Virus record (IMG/VR): IMGVR_UViG_3300043466_003692
Coordinates: 1-35,379 of that record
Source of the DNA: a virus
Strand: one strand, 5' to 3'
Length of the DNA: 35,379 bases
Within the stretch, counting starts at the first letter, position 1; each line of letters begins with the position of its first letter. The position numbers were made by a program, and so were the translations under genes. Under the pieces are notes generated by a model, which was given only the letters and a program-made list of their open reading frames with translations, did not search any database and was not told where the DNA came from. Shown one piece after another: positions 6,401 to 22,449 of the stretch.

Positions 6401-7520
6401 CTTGATTGATTGCCCAGCGAAGAGTTCCGCTTGAACCATCATCCAAGAGGCTTGTAACTTCAAGCGATGTTGAAGCGGGAATAGTAGTAGTGGTGGTGGT
6501 ACTCGTAGTGGTCGTAGTGCTCGTAGTAGTAGTTTGGGCAACAGTAGTTGTAGTTGTAGGGGGAACCGTTGGGGCAGTTTCACTATTTGATGCAACTCCA
6601 CCGAATGTGGTGCAATTGTTTGAAATGCATCGGTTTGTTGAACCAGCCTCGCTATCAACCATCAGCGCTGGAGGTAAACCTTGGTCATCCAGGTTGAACG
6701 AGGCAAAACCAAGTTTATAAGTACCGCTTATAGAGACTTGATATGTTGAAGTTTGCCAACCCGTAGAGCCATAAGAATTCGTTGAGTAGTCGCCAGTGCC
6801 GGGATTGGTGAATCCAAGAAGTGCGTATTGCTTGACATAGTTGTTTACCGTTACTACTGGAGTGCCAGTAACAGTCACGGGGACAAGTGAAGTTATGGAG
6901 CCGTCGTTGAAGGGTACATAGTCAGTTCCGACATAGTTCCACGCCATTGTGTAGGTCGTGCCTGCCGTCAGTTCTACCTCACGAGTAATCCATGCTGCGT
7001 CTGTCGGTGTACCTTGACCGTTGCCTGATGCTTGCGCCTGCGATGTAAGCATGTTTTTAATTTCTGTTACCGAGCCAGCCGAAAGGCTCAAAGCACTTGC
7101 CGCTTGGTCAAAAGTCTGTTCACCTTTGGGTTGAAGAAGAACAGCGTTTGTTCCGTTATTAGGGGAGAATGTCCAACTGCCAGAAGCAACTGCTGAGGCG
7201 TAATACGGGCTAGACGGACTTCCAACAGCACCCCTAGAACCGTGAGTGAAAGTCCGAGAACCAGTAAATATGGTTACACCACTACCGTTGCCAGTAATAG
7301 TGCTACCCAATGTCCCAGACTGGCTTCCCTTACTCCAGCCCGTAAAGGTTCCGTCCTCAAATCCAGCATCAGGGAATGAGGCAGCCTCAACACTGGTTAC
7401 TCCAGTGAACATTGATACGGTCAGCACAAATACAAGTGCTACTGAGATTGACGAAAATATCTGTTTGCGAAATATATTCAAGTCGTTGCGACCCCCGAAA
7501 TATTTTACACTATTGAACAT
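3495..7520 (-). CDS. Giant Sec-exported, membrane-anchored beta-helix surface protein with 34-residue repeats
   Basis: I chose ATG 7520; GTG 7565 would add 15 residues, and neither has a strong ribosome site. In order (1341 aa): signal peptide (about 20-46, core VALVFVLTVSMF, cleavage near VEA/AS); a lectin-like beta-sandwich region to about 310; a poly-Thr linker (6480-6540); a right-handed parallel beta-helix of short N/G/S/T repeats (about 360-650, e.g. NNSQFTGNTQFGAYLG); an FN3-like domain (about 660-760, LTAVANADGSVDLDWD); a second Thr/Pro-rich linker; acidic 34-residue helical repeats (872-1109); and a C-terminal part with hydrophobic segments, two near the end (MGFTLAGSLVVYLTL; STILAFTGAMYL). 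Exported proteins of this size are unusual in phages. It resembles actinobacterial cell-surface proteins. It may coat or decorate the infected cell (exclusion, adhesion), or be acquired host DNA. Function is unknown. Confidence 0.85.
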   Translation of the reverse strand: MFNSVKYFGGRNDLNIFRKQIFSSISVALVFVLTVSMFTGVTSVEAASFPDAGFEDGTFTGWSKGSQSGTLGSTITGNGSGVTIFTGSRTFTHGSRGAVGSPSSPYYASAVASGSWTFSPNNGTNAVLLQPKGEQTFDQAASALSLSAGSVTEIKNMLTSQAQASGNGQGTPTDAAWITREVELTAGTTYTMAWNYVGTDYVPFNDGSITSLVPVTVTGTPVVTVNNYVKQYALLGFTNPGTGDYSTNSYGSTGWQTSTYQVSISGTYKLGFASFNLDDQGLPPALMVDSEAGSTNRCISNNCTTFGGVASNSETAPTVPPTTTTTVAQTTTTSTTTTTSTTTTTTIPASTSLEVTSLLDDGSSGTLRWAINQANANAGGIYDAIDITTEGTISLTSDLPAITAGVTITGTGMTTTIIDGNNLYRAIYNNGSRTIVIEDMTFKQGKNVSWNGGLIYNASGTMTFNRIKISNHSSWAFYQGGGGVTTFNDSQFTNNGYAITSDHGGTPTALSLTDTDYSNRIYVNGSTFTSNTYGIRTERFVKINNSQFTGNTQFGAYLGGLNRQQVLNSTFTSNGVGVYFSSWIPTSWAVGAGNQTVSGNTFNGNTTAIQFANNWNNGSSVYNGVSANSFSTASGNTFGTTAQNTNNFSGSGYVESNNTITAAYLNPVTNLTAVANADGSVDLDWDASAASNCVIYGYSVSFYDLTVIGGATSGGWGVWTNQGTNYSLSTEMFSGSNPVTTGYGPVRFGIKAMTAGCAGVGTGSCTYSPEVTVDATVLDPTTTSSTTTTTTSTTVAPVVVTPPDGTTVPLPQYPEPETESTTVPLPVETGTGIELPTETIPEYSEPIGIDPTETETVVVIIPPDDYTVTDIEDNEPITTVILDNILENTFTTDIEADEVGAVLDTLLGAELTNAQFDNVLEAVFTEDVSADVFTEALTTMLDADITSAQLTAVLDSAFSEDTSAENMVSALVSIFDGPLSSGDLNTVMAAVFDEDISVADTMTVLGDLLETNLSMSETEAIFDSVFDDDLSDAETIDLIVDVLEDELTSELLNTVLGAVFDEEVSNEVLIETFTAVLGNELDAESVGVIVDVLDSDSITNDQVSQVVDLIVNQDGGVSSDQATELATSPKVLESIDGDQATEVFNAVVVAEVTEEAGAQIAEALIDAATEVKEAFEEEINVFAGVFDTYVPLGSQIDVGDRRTVIAASIAATVAGAAIALGGTSGGSPSSPSQNPNNPSNQNSATRKPEEESEASGEIAGDGVEWITKLSIYKYRNGVKVFSLWGFMKKFTYGFLNMGFTLAGSLVVYLTLSGTIQKIAGVSTILAFTGAMYLHMKEPESE
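4194..4907 (-). repeat. Tandem 102-bp (34-residue) coding repeat, about seven units
   Basis: Inside the giant surface gene, five units of exactly 34 codons run head to tail (4296-4397, 4398-4499, 4500-4601, 4602-4703, 4704-4805), with a degenerate unit on each side. The marker TCGTCAAA recurs at 4336, 4438 and 4540, exactly 102 bases apart. Each unit has the plan LL-x3-LT-x3-L-x2-VLxxVF-(D/E)2-(V/I)S-x9: two short acidic amphipathic helices, each with a Ser/Thr N-cap. The shape suggests an alpha-solenoid or calcium-responsive helical stack. The repeats have diverged at DNA level, so this is not a recent expansion. Confidence 0.9.
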
Positions 7521-7589
7521 CTTTGAAATGGCGTATATTGAAGTGTTGTATACTCTTATTAACACTCAAAAAGATGTATTGGAGTTTTC
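7521..7589. promoter_or_regulatory. Divergent intergenic region with dyad around a -10-like box
   Basis: This short region lies between the minus-strand giant gene and the plus-strand fibre gene. A perfect 6-bp inverted repeat, AGTGTT (7542-7547) and AACACT (7561-7566), encloses TATACT (7549-7554), a -10-like hexamer for the plus strand. TTGAAA (7523-7528) could be its -35, but the spacing is 20 bases, longer than usual. The start at 7590 has TTGGAG as ribosome site. The arrangement would suit a repressed or factor-dependent promoter for the plus-strand fibre operon. This is motif reading only. Confidence 0.3.
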
Positions 7590-8849
7590 ATGGCTGGTGC
7601 TGGCGTCCGCCTATTTACTGCTGGAAGCGTTTTAACTGCGTCGCAGGTAAATACATACCTAATGGATCAAACCATTGGTCGTTTTGCGGACTCCGCTGCT
7701 CGTGATGCCTCTTTTGGCGGACTTGGGGAGCCATCTCTGAGTGAGGGGCGTGTTTGCTACCTTGATTCAGACAACAAGTTGTACCTGTATGACGGAAGTG
7801 CATGGGTTGAAATTGGTGCCCAAATTGAAGATAGTGAAGTAACAACAGCAAAGATCAATGACCTTGCTGTAACCACAGGAAAAATCGCTGATAGCGCGGT
7901 AACGAGCGCCAAAATTGCTGACGGAACGATCGTCAATGCCGATGTTAATGCTTCTGCGGCAGTAGCCCTGTCAAAGTTGGCAACAGGGACGGTCGGATCT
8001 ATCGTTGTGCATAACGCATCTGGCGTACCAACTGCGACGGCTGTAACTGGAGATGTCACCATCACATCTGGCGGAGTTACGGCAATCGCTTCTGGAGTAA
8101 TAGTAGACGCAGATGTCAACGCTTCCGCCGCGATTGCTCATAGTAAATTAGCCAACGCAACAGCAGGACAGTTGCTACTAGGAACCACAACCACGGGGGT
8201 GGTTACAGCAACAACCGTTTCTGGCGATGTAACAATCACTGGCGCTGGTGTGACTGCTATTTCTTCTGGAGTGATTGTTGATGCTGATGTGAATGCTTCA
8301 GCCGCGATTGTGGATACAAAACTTGCAACTATTGCAACCGCTGGAAAAGTATCAAACTCTGCTACTACTGCTGATAGTGCAAATACCGCTTCGGCGATCG
8401 TCGCTCGTGACGCCTCTGGAAACTTCGTTGCTGGAAAAGCAACTTTGGCAACAGTTGATGTTAATACCGTTGTAGAAACAGCAAGCATCGTTGCTTCTGC
8501 TTCAACTGGAACAATAAACATTGAATTCAACACGAACCCGACCGTTTACTACACGAGCAACGCAACCGCTAACTGGACGCTCAATGTTCGTGGAACTTCA
8601 GGTGTCACCTTAAACGACACTCTTTCAACTGGTCAGATTGCAACAGTCACATTCTTGGCAACGAATGGCGTAACACCATACCGACCAACCGTTTTCCAAG
8701 TTGACGGATCAGCCGTAACTCCAAAGTGGATGGGCGGAACAGCACCATCTGCTGGAAATGCAAGTTCAATTGACGCTTATACATTGGCGATCATCAAGAC
8801 TGCAAGCGCAACATTTACGATGCTTGCGAGTCAGACAAGATTCGCATAA
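7590..8849 (+). CDS. Tail fibre protein (419 aa)
   Basis: Starts ATG 7590 behind TTGGAG. The N-terminus (LFTAGSVLTASQVNTYLMDQ, then LYLYDGSAWVEIG) is the attachment segment seen in many phage fibre and minor tail proteins. Residues about 80-260 are fibre repeats of the type SAKIADGTI / GVIVDADVNASAAI, the latter three times. They are followed by VSNSATTADSANTASAIVAR, a module also present in the 1456-aa fibre on the other strand. The C-terminal 100 residues (FQVDGSAVTPKWMGGTAPSA, IIKTASATFTMLASQT) form a compact tip domain common in actinophage and cyanophage tails. It is probably a receptor-binding fibre. It heads a plus-strand operon with the FN3 protein and three small genes, in opposite orientation to the main fibre block. 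Confidence 0.9.
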   Translation: MAGAGVRLFTAGSVLTASQVNTYLMDQTIGRFADSAARDASFGGLGEPSLSEGRVCYLDSDNKLYLYDGSAWVEIGAQIEDSEVTTAKINDLAVTTGKIADSAVTSAKIADGTIVNADVNASAAVALSKLATGTVGSIVVHNASGVPTATAVTGDVTITSGGVTAIASGVIVDADVNASAAIAHSKLANATAGQLLLGTTTTGVVTATTVSGDVTITGAGVTAISSGVIVDADVNASAAIVDTKLATIATAGKVSNSATTADSANTASAIVARDASGNFVAGKATLATVDVNTVVETASIVASASTGTINIEFNTNPTVYYTSNATANWTLNVRGTSGVTLNDTLSTGQIATVTFLATNGVTPYRPTVFQVDGSAVTPKWMGGTAPSAGNASSIDAYTLAIIKTASATFTMLASQTRFA

Positions 8850-8855
8850 TCAGAT

Positions 8856-9692
8856 ATGCCTTTCCTGAATCGTATTGGAAGCGGGTCAACTAGCAAGTTT
8901 GGGTTTCGCATGGGTTTCGGTCCAGGCGCCCCAACCGCCGTAACAGCAAGCCTCCCTTCTACATACGGCAACACAACTGCTTTAGTCAGTTGGACTGCTC
9001 CAGAAGTTTTAGGAAGTCCTGCATTTCACGACTACGCCATTCAGTATTCAAGCGATAGTGGTTCAACATGGACAACATTTTCTGACACTGTTTCAACTGG
9101 AACATCAGTCACGGTTACTGGTCTAACCAATGGAACTGCCTATGTGTTCAGGGTGGCGGCTGTAAACCTTGTAGCAACTGGATCATATTCGGCAAACTCA
9201 AACTCCGTAACACCACTATTCGGAAAAATTCCAACACCAGTAATTGGGGATATTGCAGAAACCACTAGTTCAATTCCTTGGTGCTTCACAAACTACAGTA
9301 GTTATGTTCCAGTTCAGGATGGCGGCACATACAACTATGTTTACTACGACTTCAATGTCAATGCTCCGAACGACCAAAGCGGCACATGTCACGGCTGGAC
9401 GGGTCTTGGTGAGAATGTTTACAGAGAGACATACCTAAAACTCACAAAGACGGGTTGGGCTGATTCGGACGCCATATTCATTGCAGAAACTACGAATACG
9501 ACTCCGCCACCACCGCCACCAGACCCATGCGCTGGGAACACCTGCTCTATGGGTGATTTCTATAACCTTAACCCTGCATGCCCAGAAGGGACTCTTGGTG
9601 GAATTTTCTACGGCGTGCCTTCAATTGCTGGATGTTCATGTGGATTCATATACGATACATGCGTACCATTTTGTCCTTTGGGATGCTTCTAA
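8856..9692 (+). CDS. FN3-domain tail protein with Cys-rich C-terminus
   Basis: The gene begins six bases after the preceding stop. The N-terminus, MPFLNRIGSGSTSKFGFRMG, is a short Gly/Ser-rich lead found on phage tail-tip proteins. Residues about 26-120 form one fibronectin type III domain (ALVSWTAPEV, AIQYSSDSGSTW, GLTNGTAYVFRVAAVN). A second beta-rich domain follows (about 125-215). After a hexaproline stretch the last 60 residues hold about nine Cys in short spacing (CAGNTCSMGDF, CSCGFIYDTC, CPLGC), suggesting a disulfide-bonded knot that folds outside the cell on the virion. It is likely a structural, surface-exposed tail component working with the upstream fibre. Confidence 0.8.
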   Translation: MPFLNRIGSGSTSKFGFRMGFGPGAPTAVTASLPSTYGNTTALVSWTAPEVLGSPAFHDYAIQYSSDSGSTWTTFSDTVSTGTSVTVTGLTNGTAYVFRVAAVNLVATGSYSANSNSVTPLFGKIPTPVIGDIAETTSSIPWCFTNYSSYVPVQDGGTYNYVYYDFNVNAPNDQSGTCHGWTGLGENVYRETYLKLTKTGWADSDAIFIAETTNTTPPPPPPDPCAGNTCSMGDFYNLNPACPEGTLGGIFYGVPSIAGCSCGFIYDTCVPFCPLGCF

Positions 9693-10202: not shown

Positions 10203-10535
10203 TTATAGAAAATGCTTGAGGATAGCCGTAGTTGCTAGAACTACCCAACAAAGATTGAACCAAATGATTGTTGGCATGGTCTTGATTGTTGATGTGATAA
10301 TCAAAGCAAGGCTTGATGCGAGGGCAAAAAGGTACAACCACCACCATTGTTTTCCAAAAATGAGACCAGGGAAGATGATTGAAATCTTGGTCATAAAAGC
10401 CCAAGCCTCAATAGCGTTTACCTTTGTCCAATAATCTCGGTCACCCCAACGGCGTGTTACCTGCATAATTTCTGATGGTTTGAGCATCCAAAAACAGTAG
10501 CAGAAATTAACCGAGGTGTATAGGATTAACCACAT
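10203..10535 (-). CDS. Integral membrane protein (about 110 aa)
   Basis: The longest frame starts at 10592, but that would overlap the YkgJ-like gene deeply. ATG 10535 is the most plausible start, still overlapping the divergent ATG 10534 by two bases. Three to four hydrophobic helices are visible: WLILYTSVNFCYCFW, AFMTKISIIFPGLIFG, WLYLFALASSLALIIT and IIWFNLCWVVLATTAIL, with a polar loop QVTRRWGDRDYWTKVN. Trp content is high. There is no recognised family. It stands alone on the minus strand between two plus-strand genes, so it is not part of the fibre operon. It may act at the host membrane; function is unknown. Confidence 0.6.
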   Translation of the reverse strand: MWLILYTSVNFCYCFWMLKPSEIMQVTRRWGDRDYWTKVNAIEAWAFMTKISIIFPGLIFGKQWWWLYLFALASSLALIITSTIKTMPTIIWFNLCWVVLATTAILKHFL

Positions 10536-10998
10536 GACAACCGAAACCCCTGTCCACTTAAAAATCAGGGAAAGAAGTTGCGGAACCTGCACAAAGTGCT
10601 GTGAGGGGTATCTTTCTGGAGATGTCCATGGAATTCCAATGTTTCCAGGAAAACCGTGTCATTTTGTAAACTTGGATTCTGGATGCTCTATTTATGAAGA
10701 CAGGCCAGAGCATCCATGTAAATCATTTAAGTGTCAATGGCTTGCCGACCCAAACTTTCCAGAATGGGTAAAACCGAATCTAGTTAATGCAATATTCGTT
10801 AATTACAGTATTGGAGAGCATCAATATTTTTCGTTAATAGAAGCGGGCGGAATTTTAGAAACAGCAACACTGTCGTGGGCCGTATCATACATGTCATTGA
10901 ACAAGTTTAATTTCACTTGGTCATATGATGGTGGGGTTAGCGCAATTGGTTCTGATGAGTTTTTAAAGGCTTATTATGCAGAAGGTGGGAATCGGTAG
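10534..10998 (+). CDS. YkgJ-family Cys-cluster protein
   Basis: ATG 10534 has AGGA eight bases upstream. The 154-aa protein shows the YkgJ (UPF0153) pattern: Cys 16, 19, 22, 23 in SCGTCTKCCEG, Cys42 in PCHF, Cys51 in GCSIYEDRPEHP, Cys62 and Cys67 in CKSFKC. The family is described as a putative zinc- or iron-chelating cluster protein. Proteins of this kind often sit beside oxidative or modification enzymes, and their chemistry is largely unproven. It is followed four bases later by a JmjC-type cupin, so the two are probably co-translated. The C-terminal half (residues 80-154) is less typical and may hold a partner- or substrate-specific part. Confidence 0.88.
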   Translation: MTTETPVHLKIRERSCGTCTKCCEGYLSGDVHGIPMFPGKPCHFVNLDSGCSIYEDRPEHPCKSFKCQWLADPNFPEWVKPNLVNAIFVNYSIGEHQYFSLIEAGGILETATLSWAVSYMSLNKFNFTWSYDGGVSAIGSDEFLKAYYAEGGNR

Positions 10999-11001
10999 AT
11001 A

Positions 11002-11436
11002 ATGTTTTTGGAAAATGAAGACACAGAAAATTACTGGATTAAAAAAGGCTTTGAGACCAATGTTCCTTCGTGGTCTGAAATACTAGAAAACCTCAATTGG
11101 TCAGTTGAGAATAAGACTCCACTAACCCATTTCCCTCTTGGGTTTTTTGCATCGCTTGATGCTTACAGAATTGAAAAAGTAAAGCCAGTTCTAGAGAGAT
11201 TGAGCCTAATTGCTGCTCATCTGTATATAAATGTAGCAACTGATGCGAGCGGGTTTGGAATGCACAGAGACCATGTAGATGTTTTCTACTGGCAAGTGCA
11301 GGGTATCAGTAGATGGGAAATAGAAGACGGTCCGACATGGGAACTCCAGCCTGGAGACTTGGTTTTCATCAAGACTGGGGTTGGTCACCGTTCAACAGCG
11401 CTAACCCCACGCGCTGGGATTTCAATGTCTGTCTGA
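11002..11436 (+). CDS. JmjC/cupin-type Fe(II)/2OG hydroxylase, short
   Basis: The 144-aa protein carries a cupin core like that of the cupin_4 / ribosomal oxygenase group (YcfD, MINA53, NO66). GMHRDHVDVFYWQVQGISRW gives the HxD iron ligands (His88, Asp90), ELQPGDLVFI is the turn strand, and GVGHRSTAL gives the distal His129. Known members hydroxylate Arg or His side chains of ribosomal proteins. This one lacks the C-terminal dimerisation and winged-helix domains of those enzymes, so the substrate is open. It starts four bases after the YkgJ-like gene. It is convergent with the minus-strand oxygenases, which end ten bases beyond it. The Fe(II) site is complete, so activity is plausible. Confidence 0.8.
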   Translation: MFLENEDTENYWIKKGFETNVPSWSEILENLNWSVENKTPLTHFPLGFFASLDAYRIEKVKPVLERLSLIAAHLYINVATDASGFGMHRDHVDVFYWQVQGISRWEIEDGPTWELQPGDLVFIKTGVGHRSTALTPRAGISMSV

Positions 11437-11445
11437 TTGCTGACT

Positions 11446-12063
11446 TTATTCTTTATTCAACTCATACATGTCGTCATTGAGTAAGTCAAAGTTAAAGGCA
11501 ATCACAGTCTTTCGTTTATTAGTATTGTTTATTGCAGAGCGATGAAAAATTTGTGCTGGGAAGAAAACAATATCTCCCTCTTGTGCGTTGAATGAATAAA
11601 TATTGTTCGTAAACGGCTCAACGAATTGGGTAATATGTTCTTTTTCTGGGGCCTCTAAATAGTAAATCCCAGCCCAGTTTGCTCCAGCGTGGGGGTGCCA
11701 GTCGTGCGTGTCGTTTTGTTCGTATTGCTGGAACCACAGTGCTTGAACTACTGGGTTTGACCAAAATAAGGAATTAGGCATACCCCTAAGAACATCAATA
11801 ATTTTTGGTTTCACAAAATCAACCCAAGGGCGATTGTGTTCTGGGTTTACTAAGAGAAAGTCGTACTTTGTTATTCTCTGGTAATTATCTTCTTCTGGTG
11901 TCTGGGTTTGAAAATTTCTTGGAACATCGGCAATCATGTCAAGAATCGTCTGCTTATTTTCTTTATGGTATGGCATTTGCGTGACATAGTAAGCCATGAC
12001 CACTGGGTTCACATAGGTTCTTCCCTTAAACATATTTGTTCTCAGACCCTTCTTGTTTTCCAT
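11446..12063 (-). CDS. 2OG-Fe(II) oxygenase, HxH-type (PF13759-like)
   Basis: A double-stranded beta-helix oxygenase of about 205 aa. The metal region reads WHPHAGANWAGIYYL (His123, His125), the pattern (H-x-H ... W/S-G-x-Y-Y) of the putative 2OG-Fe(II) oxygenase family common in aquatic phages. The distal His174 is in FFPAQIFHRSAINN, and Arg184/Lys185 (KRKTVIAFNF) would hold 2-oxoglutarate. No Asp or Glu stands at the usual HxD position. The substrate is unknown; it often accompanies tail or modification genes. ATG 12033 is an alternative start overlapping the upstream gene by only 8 bases instead of 38. It is the last of three adjacent minus-strand oxygenases. Confidence 0.8.
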   Translation of the reverse strand: MENKKGLRTNMFKGRTYVNPVVMAYYVTQMPYHKENKQTILDMIADVPRNFQTQTPEEDNYQRITKYDFLLVNPEHNRPWVDFVKPKIIDVLRGMPNSLFWSNPVVQALWFQQYEQNDTHDWHPHAGANWAGIYYLEAPEKEHITQFVEPFTNNIYSFNAQEGDIVFFPAQIFHRSAINNTNKRKTVIAFNFDLLNDDMYELNKE

Positions 12064-12661
12064 ACTTTATGAGAAGTTTCGCTTCTCTTGTTAGGCGACC
12101 ATCGTGTATTTCCTCAGATGAGGTTGGAGTGATGTGCGGATGTTTGAAAAACCAGTGTTCTGGTTCCGCAAAATGAAAGAATACCATCTGAACAAAATCC
12201 ATTGGATTCCTACTAGGGAAACTTTCCCTCCAGTGCAGTTCATTTTCTCCATCATATAAAACTGCTGAATTGTCTTTCAGGACAATCTCCTCACCGTTTA
12301 TAACAATTCCCCAGTCAACGCTGGATGCCAACTGGTAGTCAATTGTGTATGTGCATGCATTGTCGTCTAGGTGTGGCGGCAGGTTTGGGGTTCCTCCAAA
12401 AATAGGAGAATACTTTGAGGCAAGAAAATATGTTGGCAATGCGGTTTTGGATAAATTTTCAGAGCAGATACTCTTTATTTTTAGGTCAATATCTTCCGAA
12501 AGTGGTTTTGCGCGTGAATCTTCTCGCAAACCGTTTTTTGCCAGCAGACCCGATAGAGACCTGCAATGTTTTTCATCTAACTCAAAGCGAGAAGTATTGA
12601 TTGAGTTTTTAAGTTCCTCAATCTGCGCTTTAGAGAAAACATTCTCAATAACAATTGGCAT
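12026..12661 (-). CDS. Fe(II)/2OG dioxygenase (211 aa)
   Basis: ATG 12661 has GGCGA nine bases upstream; GTG 12670, in a GTGA overlap with the preceding gene, is an alternative. Iron ligands are His97 and Asp99 in LPPHLDDNACTYTIDY and His143 in DGENELHWRESF. The 2OG-binding basic residue is probably Arg151 in PSRNPMDFVQMVFFHF. The fold is a cupin-like beta-helix core with an N-terminal helical part, and the C-terminus is charged (LTREAKLLIKYGKQEG). It is related in plan to prolyl-4-hydroxylase-like phage enzymes but diverged. The target is unknown. The start is coupled to the P4H-like gene upstream, and it overlaps the next oxygenase. Confidence 0.82.
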   Translation of the reverse strand: MPIVIENVFSKAQIEELKNSINTSRFELDEKHCRSLSGLLAKNGLREDSRAKPLSEDIDLKIKSICSENLSKTALPTYFLASKYSPIFGGTPNLPPHLDDNACTYTIDYQLASSVDWGIVINGEEIVLKDNSAVLYDGENELHWRESFPSRNPMDFVQMVFFHFAEPEHWFFKHPHITPTSSEEIHDGRLTREAKLLIKYGKQEGSENKYV

Positions 12662-12666
12662 TATCG

Positions 12667-13386
12667 TCACTCGCCGACAACTGTTGGCTCAATGAAGTTT
12701 TGTATTTGAGTAATGTCCCTGTTTTCAATTACATACGGACGATGCAGGTCTGGAACATCGCATATGATGAATGTACTGATAATCCACTTGTCCTCTGATA
12801 CAGGAACACATCCAGCGTGTGGGTGCGTCCATGCGGCAGGGAATATGGCTATATCTCCAGCGTTTCCTTTTACTCGGATATTCTGGTCTGGGAACATAGT
12901 CTCTCCGCCGACATCAATGTCGTTCAGGTATATAACCATCCCAAGAATTCTGCCTCGCTCGGTATCTTGAGTCCAAACATCGCCATCAATGTGAACCCTG
13001 TAGAAGCCGTCTCCCTTTATGTATTTTTGAAGCCTGAAACCAGTATGCCTAGGCCGTGGAGCAGCACGAAGATGTGGGTACTCCTCAAGGTAAAGTGCAA
13101 GTGCGGAGTTGACAGCATCGTCAATCTCGTATGAGATTTTCATGAATGAATTATGTGATGGCAAATTCAAAGGCTGGAGCGTCTCGTAGCAATACGAAAA
13201 ATCGTATGTATTTTTGATATGCCTCTGCACGCCTCCCATTGTCGGGCCAACCTCAAAGAGTTTCTCAAACGACTGCTTGCAATTACTGACTAATTCTTCA
13301 CAGGTAGTCTTGCTTATCATTGCCTCTGCTACTGCTATATGGCATTCCCTACCTGCTGGGAACTTCAGGAGATGCAGATTGCTCAT
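12667..13386 (-). CDS. Prolyl-4-hydroxylase-like Fe(II)/2OG oxygenase (239 aa)
   Basis: A clear P4Hc-type domain lies in residues about 100-210. FRLQKYIKGDGFYRVHIDGD gives His132 and Asp134. MVIYLNDIDVGGETMFP is the strongly conserved strand and GGET turn of the family. GDIAIFPAAWTHPHAG gives the distal His (190, or 188), and EDKWIIST gives Lys200 for 2-oxoglutarate. Members hydroxylate proline in collagen-like or ribosomal/elongation-factor proteins, or other side chains; phage members are mostly of unknown target. The N-terminal 100 residues are not assigned. The start overlaps the stop of the upstream unknown gene by ATGA. All catalytic residues are present. Confidence 0.92.
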   Translation of the reverse strand: MSNLHLLKFPAGRECHIAVAEAMISKTTCEELVSNCKQSFEKLFEVGPTMGGVQRHIKNTYDFSYCYETLQPLNLPSHNSFMKISYEIDDAVNSALALYLEEYPHLRAAPRPRHTGFRLQKYIKGDGFYRVHIDGDVWTQDTERGRILGMVIYLNDIDVGGETMFPDQNIRVKGNAGDIAIFPAAWTHPHAGCVPVSEDKWIISTFIICDVPDLHRPYVIENRDITQIQNFIEPTVVGE

Positions 13387-13805
13387 TCTTCTTCCCCTAC
13401 ATTGAATTCATGTGTTTCTATTTGCTCTCCGTCAACGCGGACAGAGATGACATAATCACCAGCAGATTTCGGAAGTATAGAGAAAAATATGCACCTTGGG
13501 TCTTGGATTTTTGTGCCAATTTGAGTTTCCTTGCCGTTAAAAACTACAAACAACTCTATTTTTGAAGAATCAATAGTGTCGTTTTTATAGTGACCAATAA
13601 AAGACTTATTCAGGGCGATTCGTGATTGAGGGATTTCCATTACTGGTTGTTCTGGTATCAGCACAAAACCGACCTTGGTTCTATCAAATTTGGCGTCTTT
13701 TGCAACCTCGGCATATCCGACCATGATTGGCAGAGAAAACTCAGAAGCCATTTTTTCGGCTTCGTCCATAGATGATTCATCTGGGCAGTAAATGTATCTA
13801 AGCAT
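13383..13805 (-). CDS. Hypothetical protein (140 aa)
   Basis: ATG 13805 fits the leader TAGGATTTGCCCATG; an in-frame TTG two codons earlier is unlikely. The product begins MLRYIYCPDESSMDEAEKM. The N-terminal part looks alpha/beta, and the C-terminal 60 residues look like a beta-sandwich of Ig-like type (KIELFVVFNGKETQIG, AGDYVISVRVDGEQIETHEF). It lacks HxD, Cys clusters and membrane segments. I do not recognise a family. It is coupled to the P4H-like enzyme by ATGA and lies in the enzyme block, so it may be a substrate or partner of these enzymes; this is inference. Confidence 0.6.
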   Translation of the reverse strand: MLRYIYCPDESSMDEAEKMASEFSLPIMVGYAEVAKDAKFDRTKVGFVLIPEQPVMEIPQSRIALNKSFIGHYKNDTIDSSKIELFVVFNGKETQIGTKIQDPRCIFFSILPKSAGDYVISVRVDGEQIETHEFNVGEEE

Positions 13806-13817
13806 GGGCAAATCCTA
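13803..13817 (-). repeat. 15-base direct repeat at start codon (copy 1)
   Basis: TAGGATTTGCCCATG on the minus strand ends with the ATG of the 140-aa gene. An identical copy lies at 16725-16739, in the same orientation and also ending with a start codon. The two copies flank the oxygenase-halogenase-DUF6065 cassette. It includes the Shine-Dalgarno AGGA. Confidence 0.85.
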
Positions 13818-13824
13818 TCCCGAA

Positions 13825-14673
13825 TTACTCCAATTCCTTGTCTATTCGGTGTTGTTCTTTTTTGTACTTACCCTCCCACATCTCATCTCTATAGACTGTT
13901 CCAAATCCCAATCCATCAAGGATTTTATGTAGGCTCTCATCTCCCTTTAGCAACTGTGATTTTTTTATAATTTGAGAACGCTTAAACGGTATTACATGTA
14001 AAAGAGGGGTTCCTGCCTCCACGGTAAAACCAGTACTTGTTTTTATATTAAAGACAACATTGCAATGATGATACATGTCCGTATTTACTACGCCACATAA
14101 AATATCGTAGTGATTATTTGGCTCCCATTGTGGCTGTATGAAAAGACATGACCAGCCTGGTGCGGTTCTAATCAGCCACGGATTTGTCAATTTTAAATAA
14201 TCGCTGTCGGGCAATCCTTTTACATTCCTAATTGGGCATTCACCAGTTTGATTATTGCCGAACTGCTGACCTTCAACGACAGATTGCTTGAACACATGGT
14301 GTTTATCCATGAATTCAAGTTCTGCTGTTTTAAATATTGGGAGGCTCTTGTCTGCCATTGTGTAGCGTGCACTCCAGCGAGCATCTAATTTTGAAACTGG
14401 TGGACGAACCTCAAGGTTTGCCCATAGCGGTATCGTGTAACCCATCCGCATATAGTCGCCGAGACCGTAACATCCGCGCAAACCAAAATCCCCAGATAGA
14501 ACATTTTTATACCAGTCTGGAGTCTTCCTATTGTTTTGGTAAACCGCGATACTTGGGTGCCACATTTGATTGTCTATGGGTATGGCTAGTAACTCTCCGT
14601 CTTTTGGAACAGGGACATCGTCGTAAATATCTCCCTTGAAAACAGAGGGTTTACTTTTTGAAAATAGACGCAT
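13825..14673 (-). CDS. DUF6065-like phage protein (282 aa)
   Basis: ATG 14673 has AAAGGTGG upstream and overlaps the end of the halogenase gene by 23 bases. The protein shows features I associate with the DUF6065-type family of aquatic phages: an N-terminal KTPDWYKNV, CYGLGDYMRMGYTIPLW, a central LTNPWLIRTAPGWSCLFIQP, GVVNTDMYHHCNVVF and TPLLHVIPFKRSQI. The plan resembles a dUTPase/cupin-like beta fold with a C-terminal basic patch, but no catalytic motif is obvious. In marine phages this family is often found next to tryptophan-halogenase-like genes, as here, so a shared pathway is likely. Its reaction is unknown. It may bind a ligand or carry the substrate for the halogenase. Confidence 0.75.
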   Translation of the reverse strand: MRLFSKSKPSVFKGDIYDDVPVPKDGELLAIPIDNQMWHPSIAVYQNNRKTPDWYKNVLSGDFGLRGCYGLGDYMRMGYTIPLWANLEVRPPVSKLDARWSARYTMADKSLPIFKTAELEFMDKHHVFKQSVVEGQQFGNNQTGECPIRNVKGLPDSDYLKLTNPWLIRTAPGWSCLFIQPQWEPNNHYDILCGVVNTDMYHHCNVVFNIKTSTGFTVEAGTPLLHVIPFKRSQIIKKSQLLKGDESLHKILDGLGFGTVYRDEMWEGKYKKEQHRIDKELE

Positions 14674-16120
14674 GTGGAACCACCTTTGTCCTCATTCTAT
14701 TGGCTGCAATATTGGCAAATGACTGCTCCATCTCTTTTCTTGAGCAATATGCATTTATTTCCAGTGTTGCTGCTTCTGGGTTTAAAACTCCTTGACCCTG
14801 AGCAACATGCCAAAAATGAGCACTTGAGAATAACTCGTACCCACCATCGTTAAATTTTGGAATATCAAAATGATGTGGGGTTCGTTCTTTCCATAATTCT
14901 AGGAGTTCTGCTAACGGCTCAGGTATTTCAGCAGACTGCTGAGATGCCCACATTTCTGAGTCGTTTCTGTCGGAGATGTAGTGGAGGGCAATCATTGACA
15001 GCCCGTTATCCATCAATGTCTTGAACCTCTTGTCGTACTGTTTAACCATTGCAGTTGATTGAGTGTTCAGGGTCGGTATGAGAGATGAAATCATTCTTGC
15101 TTGAATTATTGATGTTGAAATTGAGGTTGCTTCAAGTGGCTCAATAAACGAAGAAGCCAGACCAGTGCAGGCGACATTTTTAAATACCTGTGTCTTGTAG
15201 TATCCAGATTTCCATTTAATTATTCTTGGTTCAATATCTTCCCCATGAATTTCTTTTATTTCTTTAACCGCTTGTTCATCTGAGCAGAAATCAGAAGAGT
15301 AGATGTACCCATTCCCGCGACGGCTCTGTGTTGGTATCTCAAACATCCACCCACTTGGCATTGCCCTTGCTCTGGTGTATGGTCGTATTTCACCATCTTC
15401 TTGTCGTGGAGTTGGGAATACGGCTGACCTATCGCATGGCAGGTACTTCCTGTAACTGATGAATTCATCATCTGGAACAATTTTCCCCATCACTGCTCGT
15501 GAAAAGCCAGTTGCATCAATAATGAAATCTGTATTTGTAATCGTCCTGTTTTCATCAAGGTTTATTGATTCAACCCAGCCAGTTTCTGTGTTTTGAGAAA
15601 CGGAGACAATTTCCCCCTCAATAAACTGAACTCCCTTTCTTGTGGCAACATCAGTCAGATAATCATTTAGTTTGAATGTATCAAAATGGTATTGATTCGT
15701 GTGGTTATGAATTTCCTCAATAGTTCCATCAACCACCATGTTGTCGTGCAGGTGGTGAGAGGTTACATTCGTTAGCAGCATGGAGTTCTCAAGAGCATAC
15801 GAATAATTTCCGTAGTATCCATTTATGGATACTGGGTCAAGTGAAATACTGTGGAAATAGTAAGGGGTGTGCTTTGTCCAGTTTTCGTAGAAAATGCCGT
15901 ACTTGTGAGTTGCTTCGCACCTGCGAATCATTTCAAGTTTGTTCATTCCTGTTGTTTCACTGAATTGACGCCAGTGTTCCGTTGAACCCTCGCCAACACC
16001 GATGATGCCGATACTTTTAGATGAAACAACCACTACATCAAACCTCTGAAAGCAGTTTTTCAGATAAATTGCCGTTATCAGTCCTGCTGTTCCAGAACCA
16101 CAAACCACTATTTTCTTCAT
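14651..16120 (-). CDS. Flavin-dependent tryptophan-halogenase-like enzyme (489 aa)
   Basis: The open frame extends to 16291, but ATG 16120 begins the Rossmann strand directly: MKKIVVCGSGTAGLITAIYL, GxGxxG at residues 8-13. GVGEGSTEHW is the family's second conserved segment. Lys73 in THKYGIFYENW aligns with the catalytic Lys of PrnA/PyrH (K79/K75), and Glu330 in IEPLEATSIS with the catalytic Glu of the EPLEST segment. The fingerprint WxWxIP is WMFEIP here (258-263), second Trp replaced by Phe. Phage members exist; VirX1 of cyanophage Syn10 is a reported viral halogenase. It needs reduced FAD from a separate reductase, not seen in the window. It starts one base after the upstream oxygenase's stop and overlaps the DUF6065-like gene. 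Substrate is unknown: free Trp, a peptide, or another aromatic. Confidence 0.93.
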   Translation of the reverse strand: MKKIVVCGSGTAGLITAIYLKNCFQRFDVVVVSSKSIGIIGVGEGSTEHWRQFSETTGMNKLEMIRRCEATHKYGIFYENWTKHTPYYFHSISLDPVSINGYYGNYSYALENSMLLTNVTSHHLHDNMVVDGTIEEIHNHTNQYHFDTFKLNDYLTDVATRKGVQFIEGEIVSVSQNTETGWVESINLDENRTITNTDFIIDATGFSRAVMGKIVPDDEFISYRKYLPCDRSAVFPTPRQEDGEIRPYTRARAMPSGWMFEIPTQSRRGNGYIYSSDFCSDEQAVKEIKEIHGEDIEPRIIKWKSGYYKTQVFKNVACTGLASSFIEPLEATSISTSIIQARMISSLIPTLNTQSTAMVKQYDKRFKTLMDNGLSMIALHYISDRNDSEMWASQQSAEIPEPLAELLELWKERTPHHFDIPKFNDGGYELFSSAHFWHVAQGQGVLNPEAATLEINAYCSRKEMEQSFANIAANRMRTKVVPHASIFKK

Positions 16121-16121
16121 A

Positions 16122-16727
16122 TCAACTAAACCATGTAACCATTGAATATTTGATTTCTTCACTATTTTCACCAGTTGGTTTTGCATAGTGGTAGAACGGG
16201 AAGTTGGAAGGGAACGCAACAACACTTCCAGCCTTTGGCTTGATTTCAATTTCCTGAAATGGAAAAACAAGTTCTCCGCCATCTTCAACATCGTTCATAA
16301 ATGCAACAATGCTAAAGACTCTTCCGTTGTCCTCGGAATGGTCAACATGCCCCTTGTATTCGGCCCCACGACCATACTTCAGTAGGCCATAACCTTCGTT
16401 TCTTGTGACATGAATGTTGAATGCGTTCCTATAATGCCAAATACATTCTTCTAATTTTTTGTTTATTGAAGCCATTTCCTGTATTAAAGGCTTCATTCTT
16501 TCCACTTGACACTCTTCAAGGGGGACAAAAAGTTGATTCAGGCTCAAGTGCAAGTTTGACCTGTAATCGCTAATTCTTGTTTGGTTTGAATCACCAGTTG
16601 ACGCTTTAGTCCACTGCAAGTAACCCCAGTCCTGGCGAGCCTCTTCTTCAACCATAGGGATGAAGTTTGGGCTTCTGAATGCATTTTTATATTCAAGAAT
16701 AAATTGTTCGTGCGCGATTAGTTCCAT
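16122..16727 (-). CDS. Prolyl-4-hydroxylase-like Fe(II)/2OG oxygenase (201 aa)
   Basis: ATG 16727 follows TAGGATTTGCC; an in-frame TTG two codons earlier is disfavoured. The catalytic domain holds YGLLKYGRGAEYKGHVDHSE (His127, Asp129), FSIVAFMNDVEDGGELVFP (the GGELxFP turn typical of P4Hc), GSVVAFPSNFPFYHYAKP (His180) and EEIKYSMVTWF (Lys193). All catalytic positions are present. The first 100 residues are helical and unassigned. It is the first gene after the collagen-like, His-rich fibre, on the same transcript, and one base before the halogenase. Its position next to a protein rich in Gly-Asn-Pro triplets makes prolyl hydroxylation of that fibre a reasonable, untested idea. Confidence 0.92.
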   Translation of the reverse strand: MELIAHEQFILEYKNAFRSPNFIPMVEEEARQDWGYLQWTKASTGDSNQTRISDYRSNLHLSLNQLFVPLEECQVERMKPLIQEMASINKKLEECIWHYRNAFNIHVTRNEGYGLLKYGRGAEYKGHVDHSEDNGRVFSIVAFMNDVEDGGELVFPFQEIEIKPKAGSVVAFPSNFPFYHYAKPTGENSEEIKYSMVTWFS

Positions 16728-16745: not shown

Positions 16746-18137
16746 TTAGTGGATGTCCTTGAGCAGCGTTGATGGATTGGTTGATTCCGTTATTGACTGA
16801 CTCAAAACAACAACTACTCCAACCTGACCAGTGTCTCCAGTTGCTCCTGCATTTCCAGCCGTTCCTGGGTTTGCGGTTCCAGCAGCACCACCAGGGTATG
16901 TCGCGTTATGCGTAGTCGGGTTCGTACCAGTGGTAGGCGTTCCTGGAGCCTGCGCGTGACCGTGATGTGCTGGGTTAGTACCAGTCGTATCAGGATTGGC
17001 ATGAGAAAACGGCGTTCCAATATGGTGAACTGGCGTAATGTGGAAATGGCTATTATGCGTGTAGTGACCAATCTGCGCTCTAGCCGCATTATGACCCTGT
17101 CCGTGAATTGCTGTTCCAGGTCTATGGTGTGCAGGGTCGTGTGCAGCACCTTGTTTTGGTGGTGTATTTCGCGCAGGACGGTGGTGGGCGCCAGCATGGG
17201 CACCCGCGTTATGACCAGTAACGGAGTGGAATGGGTTTCCTGGTGCATGGAACGGATACGGAGCAGCAATATTTCCCACTACCGCATGACCAGCAACAGG
17301 TGGGTTATGACCGCTCGTAGGAGGATTGATGTGTGAAAACGGGTTTCCTGGATTATGAACTCCGTGATGCACGGGAGGGTTGGCATGAGAAAATGGGTTT
17401 CCAGGGACTGCAGTTCCTGGAGATGTGGTTCCAGCATTTCCCGCAGTGCCTGGGTTTCCAGGATTACCTGGGTTTCCAGCGGCTCCAGTGGTTCCTTCTG
17501 AGACAAATGTTCCAGAACCAGTGACTACTTTTGCCAAGATAAGTACCATGCCTCCACCTTGACCACCAGCACCGCCAGTTCCTCCAGTGCCAGCCGTTCC
17601 AGCCGTTCCTGGGTTTCCAGCAGTTGAGCCTCCACCAGTTGCATCTCCACCTGGGTTTGCTGTTCCAGCAGAGCCTGGATTTCCAGCAGCGCCTGTAGCA
17701 CCAACAGCACCAGCAAAGATGCGCTCTAATTGTGCGCCGACAGTTCTTGAACCAGAAATAAGTTCGTCAAAGTTCGTAATTTGCGAAACAGTGATTGCTC
17801 CGCCAATTGCGTTGGCTGAGTTGTACGAGATGTTCCCATCATTTCTCGTAAGCACCGTTCCAGCAAGTACGGATGTCGTTTGCGAGGTTCCAATCGGCAT
17901 TCCGATTGTTCCGTTATTTGTCAGCGTTTCTTTTACAAATATTTTGAAACCATTAGTAAATAGAGTCGCCCCAGAGTTTACGGTGAGGTTTGTAAAATAA
18001 AAATCTCGTGTTAGGTGGGTAACTCCAGAAGAGTAGACAATGCTTCCGTCTTGACCAGCGCCGAAGAGTTTATTGAGTTTTGCCTGATAAGCATCGGTTG
18101 TCGGATTTAGCAATCCAGATAGTTTTTTGATAACCAT
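16746..18137 (-). CDS. Collagen-like, His/Pro-rich tail-tip adhesin (463 aa)
   Basis: Residues 1-145 are a beta-domain shared with the upstream 244-aa protein (FTNLTVNSGATLFTNGFKIF). Collagen-like Gly repeats follow (146-198, GAAGNPGSAGTANPGG; 218-240 with GNPGNPGNPGTAG). Residues 244-412 are rich in His, Pro, Asn and Gly (GNPFSHANPPVHHGVHNPG, GAHAGAHHRPARN). A last Gly-rich part (415-440) precedes a strand, VVVVLSQS, that also closes the shorter paralogue. The roughly 200-residue insert therefore sits in a loop of a conserved glycine-rich scaffold, as in gp38-type phage adhesins with variable Gly-rich loops. It is probably the receptor-binding tip. The His run could bind metal. It precedes a P4H-like enzyme. 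Confidence 0.85.
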   Translation of the reverse strand: MVIKKLSGLLNPTTDAYQAKLNKLFGAGQDGSIVYSSGVTHLTRDFYFTNLTVNSGATLFTNGFKIFVKETLTNNGTIGMPIGTSQTTSVLAGTVLTRNDGNISYNSANAIGGAITVSQITNFDELISGSRTVGAQLERIFAGAVGATGAAGNPGSAGTANPGGDATGGGSTAGNPGTAGTAGTGGTGGAGGQGGGMVLILAKVVTGSGTFVSEGTTGAAGNPGNPGNPGTAGNAGTTSPGTAVPGNPFSHANPPVHHGVHNPGNPFSHINPPTSGHNPPVAGHAVVGNIAAPYPFHAPGNPFHSVTGHNAGAHAGAHHRPARNTPPKQGAAHDPAHHRPGTAIHGQGHNAARAQIGHYTHNSHFHITPVHHIGTPFSHANPDTTGTNPAHHGHAQAPGTPTTGTNPTTHNATYPGGAAGTANPGTAGNAGATGDTGQVGVVVVLSQSITESTNPSTLLKDIH

Positions 18138-19689: not shown

Positions 19690-22449
19690 TTAAGCCTGAG
19701 CCTCTTTCCATGAGAGTCGTCCGAACACGGAAACAGAACTGGAACCAAGGTTGGTAACCATGATGTGGAGGGTGTCTGGACCATCTGGGTAGAAACCAGT
19801 CTGTGTCGTTGTTCCACCACCACCGAGAACCGAGTTACCAAGGTCTCGCACTTGACTGAGGTCAATGGAGTTTGCTCCAGTTCCAACGAAGAAACCACCA
19901 GTTACTTCACCACCTGAAATTGTCGTTGCTCCAGCAGTTGTATAGTCTGCAATTTGAGCAAGACTTGATGTCGGCGAGGCTACAGCGGCGAATGTTCTGT
20001 TCTGCGACGGCACGCCGTTAAGAACTGCAGTTACAAGCAAGTTTGCGTTTGATGTAGTTGTAGTTACATCCAATGCGTTAAGAATCAACTGCATTCTGTT
20101 GATAAGTTCTCGCTGACCGAAAACGCCAACCTGTCCGTTATCAACCGATGGAGCAACGCGAATACAAAATAGCGCGTTGGTTGAGCCACCAGTAATAACC
20201 GTAGCCGTTCTCTGACCATAGGTAAAGATGAGCGACTTATCGTCATCGTAACGACCATCCATGATTACCGAAGTACCCCAGTGAGAGATTGCTGGAGCAT
20301 ATGTAGGGAAGGCGTATTTCACCTGAATCGGGTTGGTTGCAGAATAAGTAAATGTTGTTCCAGATGTCAAACCCATCGGAGCGATGGTTGCAGTCGGGTT
20401 TGTTGAAGTCAAAGCCTGACTAAGCGTGAGTGATGTGCCTGAGTTGATGATTGAAATGTAGCAACCGTCTGGAACACCAGCAGAAATTACCCTCATTCCA
20501 ACTTGCATGTTGGTTGTTGATGTAACCGTCACATTGTTTGTGCCAGAGGCACCAGTGAGCGTTACCCCAGTTGCACCCGCCTTTGCTCGTACGCAACCAG
20601 TAAACGATGTTGCTGTGATTCCAGTGTAGTTAACAAATTCATAACCAGTTGATGCTCGTGCAAGCGTTAATGTTCCAGATGTTGGGAACCCAGCCGTGCT
20701 GGCAACATTTATGGTTGTATCTGCTGAACCGATTGTTGCTGTTGCGTATGTCGTGAAAGGCTCTGTAATCGTCTCGTATCGGCCTGGAAGGTTTCCAGAG
20801 CGCATGTACGCTTCGGCGTTCACATTGTTGTTTACCATTTTGTGGCAATAGAGAACCTCGCCATTTGTGGCACGCATTCCCCAACGGACAGTACCTGCTC
20901 CGTACCACGAGTAGTCAATGTAGAACATCTGCATTTTGCGCAAGTCAACATTGAAACCAGATTTTCCAGTTCCATCAAACTTGTCAATATTCCATTCGTT
21001 TTGAGGGATTCTCTCGTCATGGGTCATTGTCAATTGAGAGTTGATGATGCTTGCGCCGCGATACGCAGGGCTAATCGTCATTGAGGTATCGCTTGCGATA
21101 TCCGTTACGCGGTAAGAAACTCCGCGAATTACAATGTACTCTCCAACTGTCAATTGCTTGGAGAAGAATGTTGGGTAAGCAGAACTTGTCTGGGTTACTG
21201 TGCAACTACCTTCAGTTGCGCTGATTTTTCCAGCAATTTGGAAAGTTGATGACCTGCGAACCGCAAATAGCGTTGTTCCATCAAATTCAAAAAATACACC
21301 GTTTTGTGAGTCAAACATTCCGAGCCTGTTGACACATCCATACCAGTTTGAAACCGTGCAATAGTATGAGCCTGAAGCCACTGCTGCGCTAGGCGTAGTC
21401 AGCGGGGTGTAGGTGAATGTGTTGTAACCAGTAATGGTGTAGACCGAGAATGTTCCGTTGTAACCTGCTTCAGTTGCATCATAAATATCAATTTGCGAGC
21501 CTGGCAAAAGGTTGTGGCGTTCTTTGGTTTGCACCGTGACAATGCCAGTTCCAGAATCATACGAAAGGGCATCAAGTTGGAGTGACGGTTTTAGGACTGT
21601 TCCAGAACTAATCTGGATACCTTTACCTGATTGGTATCGGAAGTAGCGGCGTGTCTGGCGAATCGCCGACTGGTGATTTGATTGACTGTTACTGGAAAAA
21701 ATAACACCACCGTCAAACGGGCGGTGAAGAAACGAGCCTTGTGGTTGTGGATAAACCGCCGCGGAACTATAGCCAATCGTTCCAGTTGGAGTGGCGTTTG
21801 CGTAGTAGACAAAAGAAGTGTCAGAGACAATTGTTGAAACCGTGAACGAGCCGTTTGGTGCGTTTGTTGACGCAGTCAGACCACGGATACCAATTTCATT
21901 ACCAAGGGAAAGCCCGTGTGGAACTGTCGTCACAACAGTAACTGCTGTTCCAGAGTAAGTCACACTAGTAGGCGCTCCACCAATTTGTGCGCCAGTATAA
22001 ATGTTTCCAACATAAATGATTGTTTTGTTACTGTCAAAGATGTTTGTCAAACTTGAAGTGTTTACCGCATTTGATGTAAATGTAGACTGAGTGGAGCCGT
22101 TTGTTGTCTCAACAAGGAAGTTTCCGTTTGAGATTGGAAGAAAGCAGTCCTGCACAGAGATTGCGGTTCCTACTGCTGGGGCACCAGACGAGAAGGTCAT
22201 CGTCACGGTCTTTGAGCCTGTGCTCTGGGTCATTGCGGTCAGGGTGGTGATTGGAGACTGGGTGTTGAACACGAATGGTCGGTTGTCTGTTAAGGCAACA
22301 TTCTCCCACTTTGTAATCTGCGTACCGTATTCAAAGTCGGTGTCAATCAGTGCCTGACCAGTTGAAACCCTAAATTTTTGTACTGGGTCAGTGAGGTTTT
22401 CTGTTCCCTGAAAAGTGGAGTCTGTGAGTGGTAATTTATTGATACTCAT
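19690..22449 (-). CDS. Large virion structural protein, cyanophage-type (919 aa)
   Basis: The protein resembles a large structural protein of T4-like cyanophages (sometimes called VrlC-like): AIRQTRRYFRYQSGKGIQIS, DKFDGTGKSGFNVDLRKMQM, FYIDYSWYGAGTVRWGM. It is built of beta-domains. Two copies of a HGL..G..I.I.G....NG.F.V...FxY module (about residues 155-235 and 290-365) also occur in baseplate J. Gly/Thr-rich Ig-like parts lie at about 610-690. It is probably attached to the baseplate or fibre base. ATG 22449 overlaps the preceding stop (TAATG). No catalytic motif is visible. Confidence 0.85.
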   Translation of the reverse strand: MSINKLPLTDSTFQGTENLTDPVQKFRVSTGQALIDTDFEYGTQITKWENVALTDNRPFVFNTQSPITTLTAMTQSTGSKTVTMTFSSGAPAVGTAISVQDCFLPISNGNFLVETTNGSTQSTFTSNAVNTSSLTNIFDSNKTIIYVGNIYTGAQIGGAPTSVTYSGTAVTVVTTVPHGLSLGNEIGIRGLTASTNAPNGSFTVSTIVSDTSFVYYANATPTGTIGYSSAAVYPQPQGSFLHRPFDGGVIFSSNSQSNHQSAIRQTRRYFRYQSGKGIQISSGTVLKPSLQLDALSYDSGTGIVTVQTKERHNLLPGSQIDIYDATEAGYNGTFSVYTITGYNTFTYTPLTTPSAAVASGSYYCTVSNWYGCVNRLGMFDSQNGVFFEFDGTTLFAVRRSSTFQIAGKISATEGSCTVTQTSSAYPTFFSKQLTVGEYIVIRGVSYRVTDIASDTSMTISPAYRGASIINSQLTMTHDERIPQNEWNIDKFDGTGKSGFNVDLRKMQMFYIDYSWYGAGTVRWGMRATNGEVLYCHKMVNNNVNAEAYMRSGNLPGRYETITEPFTTYATATIGSADTTINVASTAGFPTSGTLTLARASTGYEFVNYTGITATSFTGCVRAKAGATGVTLTGASGTNNVTVTSTTNMQVGMRVISAGVPDGCYISIINSGTSLTLSQALTSTNPTATIAPMGLTSGTTFTYSATNPIQVKYAFPTYAPAISHWGTSVIMDGRYDDDKSLIFTYGQRTATVITGGSTNALFCIRVAPSVDNGQVGVFGQRELINRMQLILNALDVTTTTSNANLLVTAVLNGVPSQNRTFAAVASPTSSLAQIADYTTAGATTISGGEVTGGFFVGTGANSIDLSQVRDLGNSVLGGGGTTTQTGFYPDGPDTLHIMVTNLGSSSVSVFGRLSWKEAQA

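Follow-up and report, generated by a model that had tools for sequence, protein, structure and literature searches.

A predicted oxygenase and halogenase tailoring cassette beside a histidine-rich adhesin gene in a virus fragment

Fe(II)/2-oxoglutarate-dependent (Fe/2OG) oxygenases and tryptophan (Trp) halogenases are common in aquatic phages and their substrates are unassigned, hence the interest in a testable job for them. Papers place the phage 2OG-Fe(II) enzymes in nitrogen/2-oxoglutarate control or DNA repair (PMC3037559, PMC2984593) or in metabolism, their function is recorded as not specifically investigated (PMC9602691), and viral prolyl 4-hydroxylases (P4H) have been called cryptic (PMC9301287). 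The P4H of Paramecium bursaria chlorella virus-1 (PBCV-1), for which viral peptide substrates are described, has been proposed to hydroxylate proline of the virus's own proteins (Eriksson et al. 1999, as cited in PMC9301287). It is a precedent for the locus described here, a minus-strand gene run in the linear 35 kb IMG/VR virus fragment IMGVR_UViG_3300043466_003692 (the window, all 35,379 nucleotides). The run contains two adhesin-like fibre genes, the second named fibG, followed by genes for P4H-like oxygenases, a flavin-dependent halogenase and a DUF6065-like protein. PBCV-1 differs in being a eukaryotic virus with a single enzyme and neither a halogenase nor a DUF6065-like partner. We know of no dedicated neighbouring adhesin for the PBCV-1 enzyme.

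Mycobacteriophage virions are glycosylated by phage-encoded enzymes, which also modify virion proteins but add sugars instead of oxidizing or halogenating them. Pathways for ribosomally synthesized and post-translationally modified peptides (RiPPs) with halogenases or hydroxylases, such as those of lanthipeptides, share linked enzymes and a ribosomal low-complexity target; however, the target in the window would be a large structural protein, with no leader cleavage or exporter seen. General Pfam and PHROGs scans, none of them RiPP-specific, recognized no precursor with a leader, maturation protease or transporter in the cassette. The oxygenase and PrnA genes of cyanophages and pelagiphages (S-SCSM1, HTVC008M, S-PM2, Syn10 VirX1) belong to the same enzyme families. 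S-SCSM1 is reported to have 24 2OG-Fe(II) oxygenase genes (PMC9602691), and HTVC008M combines five or six Fe/2OG genes with a halogenase in an array near the baseplate and a Gly-rich fibre-like protein. These isolates differ from the window in that a His-rich adhesin of the fibG type is absent from the isolate collection, where a search with fibG gave no match. The gp38-type adhesins of T-even phages and hafunaviruses (PMC8651126, PMC9229481) have Gly-rich motifs between hypervariable segments, but the segment in the window is His-rich and accompanied by oxygenases and a halogenase. Cassettes of this kind are described in no paper found in the openly licensed literature.

Comparison across loci makes it quite likely that the island serves as a tailoring cassette dedicated to post-translational modification, one that would hydroxylate and halogenate a low-complexity segment of an adhesin made by the phage itself. 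The gene content and order, the catalytic residues, purifying selection where measurable and the specific co-occurrence of enzymes and segment in many phages are observed; from these we infer fibG as the substrate, the residues modified and the benefit. Co-occurrence was assessed in 80 viral and 18 cellular loci with the fibG-type N-terminal domain annotated; these are contig fragments, and the counts cover informative loci. A segment with at least 10% His in 60 residues was called His-rich, a cut-off chosen after the data were seen. Where such a segment is present, the halogenase occurs in 61/61 viral loci, a P4H in 60 and a DUF6065-like gene in 56. The same N-terminal domain without the segment is accompanied by a halogenase in 0/19 loci (5 viral, 14 cellular). 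The halogenases of the adhesin-domain loci form 16 clusters at 60% identity, and the distances of the fibG domain, the halogenase and the DUF6065-like protein correlate (Mantel rho 0.47-0.70, 0/500 permutations). In four loci (L440, L452, L454, L482) the enzymes are found upstream of the adhesins, and the backbone marker of the window is missing in 48/49 loci with 5 kb of upstream sequence; therefore, the link between adhesin and enzymes is not simple synteny. A scan with a halogenase profile found 23 loci at an identity of about 40% or higher, and almost all of them also have the adhesin pair, a P4H and a DUF6065-like gene.

The fibG protein contains 31 His, 7 Tyr and 0 Trp. Its relatives have a mean identity of 0.71 in the N-terminal domain versus 0.50 in the His segments, where 36% of columns are gapped. 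Among distinct fibG sequences the His-rich segment lacks Trp in 45%, almost never lacks Tyr and never lacks His; therefore, the halogenated residue, if it is in fibG, would be Tyr or His and not Trp. The alternation of Gly-rich motifs and hypervariable segments in fibG is that of a T-even gp38-type adhesin, and fibG is a candidate member of the gp38 family. The adhesin profile has a weak match (3e-4) to HRTV-14 gp32, and fibG has no sequence match to solved structures, including S16 gp38. The 18140 protein has the fibG-type N-terminal domain and is Gly-rich without a His-rich segment; a fibre gene of this type precedes fibG in most cassette loci.

The iron ligands of P4H 16122 are kept in nearly all relatives (H129 in 101/101, D131 and H182 each in 100/101), and the 2OG-binding K195 position is Lys or Arg in 100/101. 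The PF13640 domain with its HxD...H facial triad and 2OG-binding Lys/Arg is that of P4H-like enzymes. P4H 12667 has H132, H190 and K200, and the 12026 oxygenase has an H100-x-D102 motif. Hydroxylation of peptidyl proline is the activity predicted for the P4H-like enzymes. The 14651 protein has the PF04820 domain, GxGxxG, W-x-F/W-x-I-P and catalytic Lys and Glu of Trp halogenases, with K73, E330, W258, P263 and GxGxxG invariant in 47 sequences. The ratio of nonsynonymous to synonymous substitution rates (dN/dS) versus the nearest relative (L002) is 0.04-0.23 for genes with estimable dS, several pairs being dS-saturated. Since the catalytic residues are near-invariant and dN/dS is low, selection keeps catalysis. 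It has to be considered whether the enzymes are maturation or assembly chaperones of low-complexity fibres that act by binding and not by chemistry. The dUTPase-fold protein, whose family is usually trimeric, would then be a scaffold for the fibres. The DUF6065-like and Ig-like proteins are constant and probably non-oxidative partners, and HRTV-14 has a DUF6065-like gene near its adhesin but no annotated oxygenase in the part of the genome that was read, which would suit such a role; however, near-invariant iron ligands and halogenase Lys/Glu are needless for mere binding, and this explanation is highly improbable.

The DUF6065-like protein was already named as such by an earlier sequence-only reading of the window, and its relatives match DUF6065 strongly. 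Its AlphaFold2 model (pLDDT 88.8) matches a dUTPase in Foldseek (4e-4), and the best 50 VIA rows are all dUTPases (Z 8.9-9.8), so the modelled fold is that of a dUTPase. The only dUTPase motif conserved in these proteins is a motif III-like GxVxTDxY stretch. The 13383 protein has 43 matches among the adhesin-domain loci. Its model (pLDDT 91.7) has a small N-terminal alpha/beta part and an Ig/filamin-like sandwich with filamin matches, a common arrangement that gives no function. Both proteins may be binding or scaffold partners. DUF6065 is mentioned nowhere in the openly licensed papers searched. In HRTV-14, of the isolated haloarchaeal viruses (locus L490), the DUF6065-like gp35 lies within 1 kb of adhesin gp32, a likeness to the window. 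The adhesin sets the host range of these haloarchaeal viruses and is a host-range determinant in hafunaviruses (PMC8651126), and viruses of the HRTV-14 type offer a cultured system for DUF6065.

A parallel class of loci has fibres with (PPFF)n tails. A DNA-level search for three repeats of the PP(F/Y)F type found 120 loci, and 120 collagen-like (GxP)6 loci served as the control. P4H genes occur in 88/120 PPFF loci (335 genes in 1.03 Mb) versus 4/120 control loci. The control loci probably belong to phages of higher GC content, and some of their matches may be non-coding. P4H genes number 0.58/kb in the 6 kb downstream of the tail and 0.018/kb upstream of it, with 230 genes on the same strand versus 28 on the opposite one, and at least one P4H lies within 6 kb downstream in 45/50 loci with 5 kb of downstream sequence. 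DUF6065-like genes occur in 44 of the 120 loci. The halogenase is found in only 1/120 and so belongs to the His class. The collagen hypothesis, P4H for GxY repeats, is out as a general rule given the 4/120 control loci; a GNPG stretch of the window could be a minor P4H target. No PPFF proteins were found in isolate phages, a search limited by the low-complexity filter. The fibres of six loci (L152 at 8063-9304, L049, L059, L060, L108 and L146) have a Hint/intein-like domain after the Pro-aromatic tail, which suggests self-cleavage or attachment at the tail end. The L152 domain matches Intein_splicing PF14890 at 9e-5, and the remaining loci were judged by eye.

The same association is seen among 80 loci taken around a homologue of the backbone gene, which encodes the virion protein at 19690-22449. 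The whole island is kept in close relatives (L002/L004 and L003/L005), while L006, L016, L017 and L037 keep the fibres, P4H, halogenase and DUF6065-like gene. In further backbone loci as many as six P4H-like genes immediately follow the gene for a fibre with a C-terminal (PPFF/PPYF)n or (PPLFFS)n tail, and PF13640 genes number up to 12 in related records. Among phages with the backbone gene, enzyme arrays accompany tailed or His-rich fibres; oxygenase-free loci mostly have neither tail nor His-rich segment, and no P4H accompanies the Pro-rich linkers that lack aromatics (L058, L074). Fisher tests on backbone clusters give p 0.006 with the first tail definition and 4e-5 with a broader one picked after inspection, which is support and not proof because the stronger value came only with the post hoc definition.

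Several observations weigh against the tailoring reading, beginning with the fact that association with a fibre does not prove a substrate. The Fisher value of 9e-19 for His-rich segment versus halogenase presence overstates independence because the 0.10 His cut-off is post hoc and the loci are related. The composition of the GxP control points the same way, as do the 5/50 PPFF loci without a P4H. More distant halogenases lack such an adhesin domain and are often in multi-halogenase/oxygenase arrays. One cluster of backbone loci (L023/L024/L028) has a P4H and halogenase by a Gly-rich fibre of neither tail type, and the cyanophages S-PM2 and S-RIM44 have a halogenase close to the backbone gene but on the opposite strand, without such a fibre seen.

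A rival reading is hitch-hiking, in which a hypervariable fibre region gathers auxiliary genes and the oxygenases act elsewhere, for example in 2-oxoglutarate/host nitrogen signalling or DNA repair. Such roles have been proposed for cyanophage 2OG-Fe(II) enzymes (PMC3037559, PMC2984593), fibre regions are plastic, and S-H38 and S-PM2 have oxygenases or halogenases away from fibres. However, hitch-hiking predicts enzymes beside any fibre, and they are seen in 0/19 His-poor and 4/120 GxP loci against 61/61 and 45/50. The placement is also strongly one-sided and same-strand, and the linkage survives changes in gene order. Hitch-hiking is therefore improbable. The sequence-only reading had proposed a search of related phages for co-occurrence of the enzyme families and the fibre, and the same counts speak against independence. 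It had missed the low-complexity segment of the adjacent fibre, which tracks the enzymes (61/61 versus 0/19).

That reading left the target open between a phage protein, a host surface polymer and a small molecule, and the comparative evidence favours the phage's own fibre. A role of the cassette in making or decorating a small molecule or a polymer of the host surface, with the adjacent fibre recognizing the product, is quite improbable. The solved relatives of the halogenase include Trp halogenases, which act on free substrates; the phage enzyme VirX1 (structure 6qgm) halogenates diverse small molecules (Gkotsi 2019, as cited in PMC10452541), and some marine phages (S-SCSM2R) have oxygenases beside glycosyltransferases. 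Pfam/PHROGs scans nevertheless recognized no biosynthetic core, carrier, glycosyltransferase or transporter in the window cassette, and such a role leaves the tracking of the low-complexity segment and the PPFF class unexplained. The earlier reading had seen no carrier, precursor peptide or transporter; the adjacent fibre may itself be the "precursor". A multi-step pathway had been proposed from gene density and coupled starts; such a density is ordinary in these phages. Fe/2OG oxygenases and halogenases had been said to occur usually one or two at a time, and this does not hold for the relatives with up to 12 PF13640 genes, nor for HTVC008M or S-SCSM1.

Genes were identified from an open reading frame listing together with Pfam and PHROGs profile scans of the window (Table 1). 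Nine co-directional genes occupy the minus strand between 18874 and 11446, in the order 18140, fibG 16746, P4H 16122, halogenase 14651, DUF6065-like 13825, 13383, P4H 12667, 12026 and 11446. The end of fibG is 18 nt from the start of P4H 16122, whose true start is the ATG at 16727. A single nucleotide separates this gene from the halogenase (ATG at 16120), and most remaining joints are overlaps of 4 to 38 nt, so the coupled starts noted earlier are real. Every gene named in the sequence-only reading was confirmed at its given position. However, the unit starts at the adhesin genes and not at 16727, and the core gene 13383-13805 had been missed. The G+C content is about 42% over the island versus about 47% on both flanks. 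An identical 15-nt context, TAGGATTTGCCCATG, is found on the minus strand at starts 16727 (the first P4H) and 13805 (the 13383 gene), and is probably a duplicated ribosome-binding site.

Table 1. Features of the tailoring island and neighbouring genes in the window
Feature	Coordinates	Strand	Basis
Adhesin-like fibre protein 1, 244 aa	18140..18874	-	adhesin N-terminal domain profile 1e-24
fibG, adhesin-like fibre protein 2, 463 aa, proposed substrate	16746..18137	-	N-terminal domain, Gly-rich repeats, His/Asn/Pro-rich segment
fibG His-rich low-complexity segment (HANPPVHHG...), codons 251-410	16908..17387	-	
P4H-like Fe(II)/2OG oxygenase 1	16122..16727	-	PF13640 4e-14
Flavin-dependent halogenase (Trp halogenase family)	14651..16120	-	PF04820 2e-93
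DUF6065-like protein, modelled dUTPase fold	13825..14673	-	phrog_7084 8e-24; Pfam just 0.01
Core cassette protein, 140 aa, Ig/filamin-like	13383..13805	-	recurrence in adhesin-domain loci
P4H-like Fe(II)/2OG oxygenase 2	12667..13386	-	PF13640 3e-10; BaP4H-like 2e-5
Fe/2OG oxygenase-like	12026..12670	-	phrog_2954 4e-14, no Pfam match; HxD...H pattern
2OG-FeII_Oxy_5 oxygenase, final gene of co-directional run	11446..12063	-	PF13759 1e-10
Short JmjC_2/cupin protein, peripheral	11002..11436	+	PF08007 2e-9; convergent with minus-strand genes
YkgJ-like Cys-cluster protein, peripheral	10516..10998	+	phrog_9155 2e-31; Cys pattern by eye, no Pfam match
TauD	2-574 (left edge)		profile match 2e-14
Ferredoxin	1440		profile match 1e-17

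The JmjC, YkgJ-like, TauD and ferredoxin genes, listed earlier with the island, are outside the conserved core as judged by recurrence. The JmjC_2 gene has relatives only in four close adhesin-domain loci (L408, L409, L411, L416) and the YkgJ-like gene in seven; TauD and ferredoxin are absent from the conserved cassette and were dropped as members. The 12026-type oxygenase (phrog_2954) is found in about half of the cassette loci. The JmjC ribosomal oxygenases (YcfD, MINA53, NO66) have a JmjC_2 core followed by dimerization and winged-helix domains; the 11002 protein, with 144 aa versus 373-442 aa in solved members, is not of this type.

The nearest relatives of the backbone gene are in T4-like cyanophages, and those of a baseplate gene in actinobacterial phages. 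The minus strand at 3495-7565 encodes a protein of 1356 aa that has stalks rich in Thr and Ser, hydrophobic segments at its two ends and a weak beta-helix match, without a phage family match. Two PHROG families, phrog_2954 and phrog_3531, take in P4H-like oxygenases found here as well as HTVC008M gp68; their "ferrochelatase" label looks like a carried-over misannotation. Two loci (L468, L470) have two P4H-halogenase-DUF6065 cassettes in tandem in one stretch, and three others (L364, L395, L401) have four or five Trp-halogenase genes in 17 kb plus oxygenases, without a fibG-type adhesin. In the isolated cyanophage S-SCSM2R (228299-236332, locus L509) genes for glycosyltransferases, a radical SAM protein and an inosamine amidinotransferase lie between those for oxygenases, which is a different tailoring island.

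In the proposed mechanism, 18140 and 16746 would encode the adhesin-like fibre proteins, with fibG supplying the His/Asn/Pro-rich hypervariable target segment. P4H 16122, halogenase 14651 and P4H 12667 would hydroxylate and halogenate residues of this segment in the infected cell, probably joined by oxygenases 12026 and 11446. The modification would be timed during infection, ahead of tail assembly, and would draw 2-oxoglutarate, O2, Fe(II), reduced flavin and halide from the host. The dUTPase-fold DUF6065-like and Ig-like 13383 proteins may bind or scaffold the target, and any halogenation of fibG would fall on Tyr or His and not on Trp. The altered side chains may change receptor binding, fibre folding or resistance to degradation; the purpose is probably to diversify the receptor-binding surface, or to make it stiffer and protease-resistant.

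The linkage names a concrete candidate substrate and segment, predicts Tyr/His halogenation and separates two enzyme-substrate classes. The case for a wider rule is evenly balanced: many aquatic phages might expand the chemistry of receptor-binding and tail proteins by RiPP-like cassettes, and so turn hypervariable low-complexity segments into non-proteinogenic binding surfaces. One class, rich in His, would be hydroxylated and halogenated; in the other, the (PPFF)n class, as many as eleven arrayed P4H-like enzymes would carry out the hydroxylation. If true, this would explain much of the phage Fe/2OG oxygenase and halogenase reservoir filed as auxiliary metabolic genes. The cassettes would then be a new source of protein-modifying hydroxylases and halogenases, and oxidation and halogenation would be a means by which phage host recognition is diversified.

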